Shown piece by piece: positions 36,988 through 39,801 of a stretch of 64,000 bases of DNA. How positions within the stretch are numbered: position 1 is the first letter of the stretch; every line of letters starts with the position of its first letter. Position numbers and translations under genes: made by a program. The DNA lies in contig CAKZPE010000006.1 in the NCBI GenBank assembly GCA_937138495.1, positions 104,624 to 168,623 of the forward strand. Reading direction: 5' to 3'. Under the pieces are notes generated by a model. The model was not told the DNA's origin, did not search any database, and saw nothing but the letters and a program-made list of their open reading frames with translations. Source of the stretch: an uncultured Oceanospirillaceae bacterium. GTDB taxonomy: Bacteria; Pseudomonadota; Gammaproteobacteria; Pseudomonadales; Balneatricaceae.

Positions 36988-37029
36988 GCTCTCAGTTAAG
37001 GGCTCTCAGTTAAGGGCTCTCAGTTAAGG
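36988..37029. repeat. Triplicated 14-base repeat across the ABC-like gene's stop codon
   Basis: GCTCTCAGTTAAGG occurs three times head to tail without mismatch (36988, 37002, 37016). Read on the minus strand each unit contains the codons for LN and a TGA, so the ABC-like protein stops in the first copy and the other two lie just after its stop. Confidence 0.93.
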
Positions 37030-39587
37030 GCTATCAGTCCGTCGTGATCGATGCGGAAGTTGCGGCTTTGCAACGGAGTAAATACGGTGCCGCTGCGCAG
37101 CAGGATAATGGTCAGTTCCGGCATCAGGCGGCGGATGCCTTCCAGCATTTCCAGCTGTTCATCCGGTGTTTTATGCTCGAGGGCATCGTGCAGGATCAGG
37201 ATCTTTGGCCGTTTCACCAGACAGCGTAGCAGCTGTATGTTCAGTTTAGCGGCCAGCGGAATACGTTCGCCCCGGATGCCCACCGGAGACAAGCCGATGG
37301 TGACCAGCACCAGAGACTCGGCATCGTTGGCGATCAGCGCCTGTTCGACGATCTCTACCAGTTCTTCGTGGTCGCCGTTATTATTCGGCGCGACCTCTAT
37401 GCCCCAGATGAGATTTTCCATAACACTGAGCCGGGCATTGATGCGGGCATCGTTCAGCGGTTCCAGCTCGGTGAGCAGGCTTTGTTTGTCCTGTTCAATC
37501 AGCCAGTGGCGTAATTCGATGATCTGCCGTTGCAGCTCGGCATGAATATCGTCATCCCCGGAGTCGACAATGCGTACTTTCAGCGCCATTTCCAGCAAGA
37601 ACTCACAGGCCGGCAGATAATCCGGACGGCCAATGCATTTGGTCAGCTGTTCCCGGATGCATTCGCTGTCATACTGGCTCAGGTGCGGTTGCAGCTGGCC
37701 TTCAGGGCCGACTTCACAGAGTTCTTCGATGATGTGTTTAGAGACCTGCTCGCCGGCATCCCGCAGAGGCTGGTAAAGATTATGCTGGCGCAGGATACGA
37801 ATGAATTCTTCATTGCCGGTCAGGCTGCGGATCAGCGGTACTTCATCTTCTTCCCGGATGAGCCCGTAGCCAATGTTCTCCAGTACAGACAGATGTGGGT
37901 GGTAGCCGTTGATATCAAAGCGTTTAACGTAACGGTCCAGCTGCTGGCTGTGCCACTGGTGGGTTAAATCGTTACGGGTATCAATAAATTTCTCTTCGAT
38001 AACCGTCGGCATGTCTTTAGGATCGAAGTGATCTTTCAGGCCCAGTTCGAACACCATGCGCCGGGAGCCGATGGCGACCATCATTTCCTGCAGCCAGTTG
38101 CGCATCTGCCCCCAGTTTTCTACGCCGGCCATGTCAAAGTCTGTCCAGACGTCATGGGCGCTGGAAGGGTTGTTGCCGGATGCTTCAGCTTCTTCAATTT
38201 CGGTCAGCCGTGCGGAGGTCAGATCGTCCGTGTCTTCTTCCGGCGGTTTACGGCGCAGGCCATAGTTAATGTTCTGCAAAATCGTTCCGTCGAACAGAAT
38301 CGGTTCCGGCCCGGCATAGCTGACGTTGCGGGTCAGACGCTCGGTGGAAATCTGATTGATTTCTTCATCGCCATAGCTGATGTATCCTGCCGCAGGCTGA
38401 TCCGTGCGCATCAGGTTCTGGGCCATTTTACGTAACAGGAACGGGCTGTTCGAATGAATGTTGACCAGCTCACCCTGCTGAATATTCAGGCTGATATTCT
38501 GGGCGATATATTCTCCACGGTCATTTTTCAGGTACATATTATTCAGGCTGACAGCCCCACTGAGGTTTTTGGGCTCATCTTCAATGGCGGGCACCGGGTG
38601 AATAATATCCGGCGGATCAAAGTTTTCCAGAATCTGTTCATAGCGGATTTTGGCATCCTGATATTGCTGATAGTACGCCAGCAGTTCTTTCCAGGGGGCG
38701 ACCAGGTCTTTATATGCAGTTAATGCCGCGACCAGTGCGCCCATGCTCAGGTGGCCCTGAATAACCAGGATTCCACCCACCGCATAAAACATAATAGGCG
38801 GTAACTGGTTGAGGAAGTTGTTAATGAACTTCATCAGGAATTTTTGCTGAAAAATATTCAGCCGGATCGTAAACAGCTTGCCCAGGATCTGTGAGAAATG
38901 GGCCAGATGATAGTTGTGAGTGCCGTAAATCCGGACTTCACGGTTGCCATCCACGCTTTCACCAATCTGGCTGGCGAGTACCCGTACCTGACGAACCCGC
39001 TCTTTTTTAAGCACGTTCAGTTTTTTCTGCATGCGGGGAATGATGTAGGCCTGCAGCGGAATCATGGAAATCGCCACAATGCCCAGAATCGGATCCTGAA
39101 CGAACATGAAAGTCAGGATTGTGATCATGGTGCCGCCCTGGAACAGGGGTTGGGCCAGGCTGTCGCCTATAAAGCCTGCCAGAGGCTCGGTTTCAGAGGT
39201 GACTGTGGCGATGATCTCACCCTGGGACACCCGCTGAAACTGCCCGGGCGGAAAGCGCAGCACCCGTTCCAGCAGCAGATAGCGCAGGCGGCGCACCATC
39301 CGTTCACCGATCACACCTTTGTAGGTGTTAATCCGCATTTTAAAGGCACCGCTGACCAGCACGGTCAGCAGTAACATACCGCTGAGCAGCAGTAAAAATT
39401 CTATGGGTTGCCATTCCATGCCCAGGAATGTGCTGGTTTCCGCGCCGTCGATTGCGCCGTTAATAATGGTCTTAGGCAGTTCGAGGGAGAGATACAGAAT
39501 CGGGAAAAATAACAGGGTTAGCAACAGGACGCGCACCTGATCGCGCAGGCTGTAGCGGTAGATAAACTGACTTATGCGACGATCCAT
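37020..39587 (-). CDS. Aberrant ABC-exporter-like protein lacking ATPase motifs
   Basis: An 855-residue protein (Met at 39587; the track adds nine residues). Residues 1-310 are a type-1 ABC exporter membrane domain with intracellular helices (ERMVRRLRYLLLERVLRFP, SQGEIIATVTSE). Residues 345-855 should be the nucleotide-binding domain but are about 510 long, twice normal. The Walker A site reads GELVNIHSNSPFLLRKMAQNLM with no GxGKS/T. The ABC signature position reads RGERIPLAAKLNI instead of LSGGQ. Walker B ends ILILHDAL rather than DE, and the H-loop His is missing. Three segments resemble the post-Q-loop 'xxENIxYG' element: ILQNINYG (437-443), VLENIGYG (568-574) and VMENLIWG (722-729). It may be an ATP-independent membrane protein or need a partner. 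No partner gene is adjacent. Confidence 0.82.
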   Translation of the reverse strand: MDRRISQFIYRYSLRDQVRVLLLTLLFFPILYLSLELPKTIINGAIDGAETSTFLGMEWQPIEFLLLLSGMLLLTVLVSGAFKMRINTYKGVIGERMVRRLRYLLLERVLRFPPGQFQRVSQGEIIATVTSETEPLAGFIGDSLAQPLFQGGTMITILTFMFVQDPILGIVAISMIPLQAYIIPRMQKKLNVLKKERVRQVRVLASQIGESVDGNREVRIYGTHNYHLAHFSQILGKLFTIRLNIFQQKFLMKFINNFLNQLPPIMFYAVGGILVIQGHLSMGALVAALTAYKDLVAPWKELLAYYQQYQDAKIRYEQILENFDPPDIIHPVPAIEDEPKNLSGAVSLNNMYLKNDRGEYIAQNISLNIQQGELVNIHSNSPFLLRKMAQNLMRTDQPAAGYISYGDEEINQISTERLTRNVSYAGPEPILFDGTILQNINYGLRRKPPEEDTDDLTSARLTEIEEAEASGNNPSSAHDVWTDFDMAGVENWGQMRNWLQEMMVAIGSRRMVFELGLKDHFDPKDMPTVIEEKFIDTRNDLTHQWHSQQLDRYVKRFDINGYHPHLSVLENIGYGLIREEDEVPLIRSLTGNEEFIRILRQHNLYQPLRDAGEQVSKHIIEELCEVGPEGQLQPHLSQYDSECIREQLTKCIGRPDYLPACEFLLEMALKVRIVDSGDDDIHAELQRQIIELRHWLIEQDKQSLLTELEPLNDARINARLSVMENLIWGIEVAPNNNGDHEELVEIVEQALIANDAESLVLVTIGLSPVGIRGERIPLAAKLNIQLLRCLVKRPKILILHDALEHKTPDEQLEMLEGIRRLMPELTIILLRSGTVFTPLQSRNFRIDHDGLIALN

Positions 39588-39801
39588 AATGATTTCCCGG
39601 TGGCTTCGGCCCATAGATGGGGGCTAAACAGTCAGCCTTCAATGGCAGGCTGGAAAAATAACAATCAGTTTCAGGGATACGTCCATATAGCCTAGCAGTC
39701 ACAGCCCGTGAAATGGACTGCTCTTTTAAGTTGTGACACGAAAAATTTTAATTTGTGCCTTTGTCAGACCCTGTTGAAGGAGTGGGGAAGCCAGCGTTGG
39801 C

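Follow-up and report, generated by a model that had tools for sequence, protein, structure and literature searches.

A conserved, undescribed family of ABC-exporter-fold proteins with a catalytically dead nucleotide-binding domain and a probable ATP-independent mode of transport

The protein encoded at 37020-39587 on the minus strand of the window (the whole 64-kb stretch of DNA that was analysed) appears to belong to a conserved and undescribed family of transporters with the ABC exporter fold. With moderate confidence, we propose that these proteins do not hydrolyze ATP, that an ion probably powers or gates their transport, and that their dead nucleotide-binding domain (NBD) has become a scaffold or regulator. 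Members are annotated just as "ABC transporter" and some as "ATP-binding protein." No publication describing the family was found in the part of the literature covered, where SMb tags were guessed from the gene order of pSymB and may miss the right one.

The open reading frame (ORF) is long and uninterrupted, as the initial annotation had stated, and its product has 855 aa. A second in-frame ATG lies at 39614, and the alignments with homologues begin at the ORF's own start. The gene is flanked by two methyl-accepting chemotaxis genes (named from their translations), and the closest named relatives of the protein are from Aliamphritea spongicola and an Amphritea MAG. A 14-bp tandem repeat of 3.6 copies (window 36988-37038) spans the stop codon, and slippage in this repeat could move the end of the protein. 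The AlphaFold pLDDT was 34.0 for the whole protein and 37.5 for residues 345 to 855, both too low for a usable model, from an alignment of three sequences (the window protein, L010, and part of L009). The features of the gene are as follows.

37020..39587, minus strand: coding sequence of the 855-aa ABC-exporter-like protein with a catalytically dead NBD (ORF, Pfam, and homologue alignment)
38568..39587, minus strand: membrane domain of the type-IV exporter kind (residues 1-340), where the family is best conserved (PF00664 and column identity)
38706..38711, minus strand: Lys293-Asp294 in predicted TM6, charges kept in full-length and NBD-less relatives and unmatched in four canonical exporters
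38250..38555, minus strand: N-terminal half of the pseudo-NBD, residues 345-446 (profile alignment with P-glycoprotein-type NBDs)
38430..38453, minus strand: degenerate Walker A, SNSPFLLR, residues 379-386 (columns aligned to canonical exporters)
38259..38282, minus strand: genuine post-Q-loop segment, ILQNINYG, residues 436-443 (profile alignment)
37353..38249, minus strand: insertion specific to the family, about 300 residues long (447-745) and composed of two related units (profile comparisons; no Pfam family)
37863..37886, minus strand: end of insert unit 2, VLENIGYG, residues 568-575 (profile comparison)
37401..37424, minus strand: end of insert unit 3, VMENLIWG, residues 722-729 (profile comparison)
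37023..37352, minus strand: C-terminal half of the pseudo-NBD, residues 746-855 (profile alignment)
37248..37262, minus strand: degenerate signature, IPLAA, residues 776-780 (columns aligned to canonical exporters)
37185..37202, minus strand: degenerate Walker B, ILILHD, with Asp replaced by His800 and the catalytic Glu by Asp801 (aligned columns)
37092..37094, minus strand: H-loop position, His replaced by Ser832 (aligned columns)

The membrane domain is that of a normal exporter, as first described, with ABC_membrane (PF00664) matching residues 49 to 290 at 94.4 bits (E value of 1.3e-26) against a cut-off of 28. When the protein was compared with 24736 Pfam models at an E value of ≤1, the only other match was ABC_tran, which remained under its cut-off (E value of 0.015), and no SbmA family was found. 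The two intracellular docking loops span 31 and 41 residues, compared to 31 and 37 to 47 residues in the canonical rows (a comparison of length only). The membrane domain and the general order of the NBD are like those of the type-IV exporters MsbA and P-glycoprotein/ABCB1, and the best PDB sequence matches are ABCB1, ABCB4, and ABCB10. The MsbA model, however, reached 124 bits on the window protein, far under its cut-off of 602 bits, and unlike these exporters the protein has lost the ATPase motifs and carries the insertion of about 300 residues after the post-Q-loop segment.

The motif columns of the window protein were fixed by alignment to six ordinary exporters of the same genome. At these columns none of the six ATPase motifs (Walker A, Q-loop Gln, LSGGQ, Walker B Asp, catalytic Glu, and H-loop His) is present, which bears out the complete loss of catalytic motifs proposed initially. 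The loss extends to the family. Among 48 full-length rows (30 matches of the insert HMM, 14 from relatives, and 4 from plasmids, several of them near-copies), 27 retained none of the six motifs, 15 retained one, 3 retained two, and 3 retained three, compared to all six in each of the 30 control sequences, which are orthologues of an ordinary exporter. The full set was absent from all 36 insert-HMM matches in 398 genomes (30 tallied and 6 checked by eye). The initial annotation had named homologues with intact Walker motifs as the observation that would speak against it; the family does not bear this out, as every one of the 48 members has three of the six motifs at most.

The Q-loop Gln was kept in 1 of the 48 family rows versus 30 of 30 controls, the Walker A Lys in 9 rows, and the catalytic Glu in 10. 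The three rows with three motifs come from one genus and keep the GKS of Walker A and the Asp-Glu of Walker B, while the signature, Q-loop, and H-loop are gone; ATP binding is therefore possible in some branches. The lost residues vary by branch, a pattern that resembles repeated erosion from an active ancestor. The same variation makes it quite improbable that the family is a classical flippase driven by ATP whose unusual active site escapes motif matching. A flippase would fit the glycosyltransferase-like genes found in the fetched stretch of 14 of 35 loci (ORF clustering, with Pfam on two genes), and the retained Walker A Lys and catalytic Glu residues also speak for it; a shared substitute at Walker A, the signature, or the H-loop is nevertheless missing. 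In the window's own lineage there is no link to glycosyltransferases.

The initial annotation had also derived the nucleotide-binding part from a real ABC ATPase, and this ancestry is supported. The family NBD profile aligns to human ABCB4 in two blocks (profile positions 12 to 99 and 405 to 513) which almost abut in ABCB4 (positions 493 and 502), indicating a single insertion of about 300 residues just past the real post-Q-loop segment. The profiles of the two insert units match each other with an E value of 4.6e-14 and a score of 82, compared to 18 for the best of 40 column shuffles, and this homology lies in their last 48 columns. The first segment matched units 2 and 3 with scores of 26 and 28, above the shuffle maxima of 20 and 17, and the third copy is consequently a short, weak match. 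The tripled segment proposed at first therefore holds in so far as segments are duplicated, but three whole helical subdomains were rejected in favor of a single insertion, built of two related units, that follows the genuine post-Q-loop segment. The insertion is ancestral to the family, and a comparison of the insertion in 29 members with Pfam gave no family, just single matches at chance level. The same dead NBD and insertion were seen in a more divergent branch (L122 to L126) in which the membrane domain is barely family-like and the BLAST match covers the NBD part only.

Of 57 related genomes, 12 gave strong matches in the protein search, with the window's own counted, and the family profile search gave matches in 28 of 398 Pseudomonadota genomes. 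An insertion-only profile, which is free of the motifs and so avoids selecting dead copies only, gave 36 matches in 31 of the same 398 genomes; the profile searches covered Pseudomonadota only. Relatives were also present in 331 plasmid records, mainly from Rhizobium, Sinorhizobium, and roseobacters, and a scan of viral contigs gave none. The homologue search thus confirmed that relatives share the motif losses, but the window protein is not a single odd protein, since insertion and motif loss are general in a widespread family.

The dN/dS values of the pseudo-NBD parts were between 0.02 and 0.05 against two close congeners and between 0.15 and 0.19 against a more distant one, and those of the control exporter NBD were between 0.05 and 0.08; these figures are rough, since dS was high and in part saturated, and no value was obtained in two comparisons. 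Together with the same anatomy across the phylum, the range of about 0.02 to 0.19 indicates that the family is under purifying selection and that the gene is maintained and not decaying, as was initially supposed. The opposite reading, a decaying copy of a normal exporter, could draw on the copy of Aliamphritea spongicola (L009 6001-8561), which is broken by several frameshifts, but the assembly of that genome (G002) is 78% complete and the frameshifts are likely assembly errors. Because dN/dS is low and the full-length matches in the other relatives of the protein search are free of stops, we regard decay as refuted.

Conservation in the family is reversed relative to active exporters, with the membrane domain more conserved than the NBD. 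Column identity in the family was 0.51 for the membrane domain and 0.32, 0.29, and 0.30 for the NBD, compared to 0.45 and 0.61, respectively, in the control exporter, a contrast of which the direction counts and the size does not, as the two sets are unequal in depth. Nine charges of the membrane domain (E36, K39, E132, E134, D142, K293, D294, K300, and E301) were retained in 41 or more of the 45 full-length rows and in all 10 NBD-less rows, and they are mostly missing from four canonical exporters. For these membrane-domain counts, rows L053, L054, and L070, whose N terminus was cut by the start choice, were left out, and they were kept in the motif tally of 48. The active control exporter likewise conserves charges there (24 positions), and hydropathy places just some of the family's conserved charges in hydrophobic stretches, so that an ion path along them is a guess.

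A cyclic-nucleotide-binding (CNB) domain is fused to the family protein in at least 11 of 54 rows, a lower bound since rows L051 and L052 are cut at the locus end, and separate CNB genes matching the same CNB profile adjoin the family gene in L066, L077, L081, and L085 (the Pfam check of CNB was run on L079, L080, L081, and L085). Genes of the beta-lactamase fold lie near L069 and L077. The one at L069 (5104-5880) matches the Pfam family Anti-Pycsar Apyc1 with an E value of 6e-29 and is directly upstream of a CNB-fused member; Apyc1 is a cyclic-nucleotide phosphodiesterase, and a cyclic-nucleotide circuit at this locus is possible. An Ion_trans channel gene precedes the Apyc1-type gene at L069. 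Importer-ATPase-like genes were found in 10 of 35 loci (ORF clustering, with Pfam on a few). The surroundings of the window gene contained no glycosyltransferase-like, importer-ATPase-like, CNB, or Apyc1-type genes.

These CNB and beta-lactamase-fold associations would suit a signalling or scaffold protein, in which an exporter shell with a pseudo-NBD would detect a ligand or cyclic nucleotide and pass the signal to other proteins. We consider this unlikely, as the best-conserved part is the membrane domain and not the NBD or the insert, the NBD-less members retain the membrane domain alone, and the CNB domain is missing in the window's lineage.

These NBD-less members, relatives which end after the membrane domain, were found in 5 of the 398 genomes, including the window's own, as open frames of 382 to 425 aa. 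In addition, 93 plasmid records match an NBD-less query protein over at least 80% of its length. In a tree rooted on four ordinary exporters, ten NBD-less proteins formed one clade (support of 100/100) nested among the full-length members (nesting branches of 98/95 and 96/92). The tree carries a long-branch warning, and a single loss of the NBD is therefore likely, not proven. An ORF for an exporter-type NBD was found in none of the 10 loci of these relatives. Their docking loops span 26 to 27 and 32 to 37 residues, compared to 31 and 41 in 45 of 45 full-length rows, and they bear an extra N-terminal hydrophobic segment, which contains His where the start was visible.

In 10 of the 12 NBD-less loci inspected, Pfam or the annotation of the record shows copper genes around the NBD-less gene, with multicopper oxidase, CopB, azurin, PCu(A)C, and often cytochrome c as neighbors. 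L061 has a copper-type setting by the ORF list alone, and L062, a 3-kb contig, has cytochrome c only. NBD-less membrane proteins in copper-resistance operons are encoded at the following positions.

L082, 7749-9242
L083, 7773-9077
L084 and L087, 7749-9053
L175 and L176, 6001-7305
L063, 8182-9351
L064, 7790-8959

These eight genes often overlap a cytochrome c gene or directly precede one, and they are annotated as ABC transporter proteins.

A precedent for an exporter membrane domain without an NBD is SbmA, which lost the NBD and coupling helices, gained TM0, and is proton-driven through glutamates (PMC13316013). For SbmA/BacA and the SbmA-like peptide transporters (SLiPT), the same source describes the loss of the docking (coupling) helices, additional TM0 helices, and acidic residues arranged as a ladder (PMC13316013). 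The NBD-less clade is similar in having no NBD, shortened loops, and an added N-terminal helix. In contrast, the window protein retains residues 345 to 855 as a dead NBD, has full-length loops, and matches no SbmA family of Pfam, and the neighbors of its family are copper genes and glycosyltransferases. The family has conserved acidic residues, and any proton coupling through them would be conjectural.

In the exporter fold, an active site combines the Walker A of one NBD with the signature of its partner. Both are gone from the window protein, and a standard ATP site is therefore not expected in a homodimer or in a mixed dimer. Heterodimeric exporters with one degenerate site, such as TM287/288, TAP, and TmrAB, likewise have an NBD with altered motifs, and degenerate NBDs are well known from heterodimers; the degenerate half of such known heterodimers still lends a signature or Walker A to the working site. 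The window protein differs in that both are lost and no partner gene is nearby, and the tandem and lone copies of the family are all degenerate. CFTR and SUR1, which use the exporter fold for a non-pumping role with NBD-mediated regulation, bind ATP, whereas the window protein has no Walker A. L065 (4818-11010) carries two full-length members in tandem, separated by a DUF3010 gene. Both are degenerate, and together they could make up a heterodimer in which each half is dead.

The genome has 16 further exporter matches at an E value of ≤1e-3 besides the window protein and its NBD-less paralogue, with Walker A in 6 of 6 checked. An active half-exporter encoded elsewhere could thus pair with the window protein and hydrolyze ATP. 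This partner-dependent exporter, one of the two forms offered by the initial annotation, now seems improbable, because the protein has neither Walker A nor signature for a composite site and its NBD-less relatives occur without any NBD nearby. A partner half-exporter in the same locus was rejected, as no other ORF for an exporter-type NBD was found in the 64-kb window at an E value of ≤1e-3. ATP-independence of the window protein is favored instead, and the conserved membrane domain together with the SbmA precedent favors transport that is ion coupled or ion gated. For the family, the sequence comparisons suggest that transport runs on something other than ATP, and by analogy ion coupling is probable.

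In the ion-coupled transporter that we favor, two copies would probably assemble as the usual exporter dimer, and the membrane domain would transport through an alternating-access cycle like that of SbmA, probably driven or gated by a proton or metal ion via the conserved charges in TM1, TM3, and TM6. The dead NBD with its duplicated helical insertion may be retained as a dimerizing and regulatory platform under the docking loops. Some relatives add to this a CNB domain, either on the dead NBD or encoded next door, and one lineage would later have given up the NBD.

ABC transporters are defined by ATP, and a machine without its motor, with a branch lacking the NBD altogether, would show how a primary pump becomes something else. 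More tentatively, the family may represent a second, independent route from ATP-driven to secondary transport in the ABC exporter fold, of which the successive stages survive today. If so, these stages would be members with some ATP motifs left, a dead and enlarged NBD as in the window protein, possible cyclic-nucleotide gating, and the NBD-less clade in copper resistance. SbmA/YddA is the sole published case of such a conversion that we found (PMC13316013). The family supplies matched pairs, with a dead NBD and with no NBD, in which this conversion can be tested. In addition, the ABC transporter annotation of hundreds of plasmid and genome entries covers proteins that probably do not hydrolyze ATP, and the family flags a component of copper operons.
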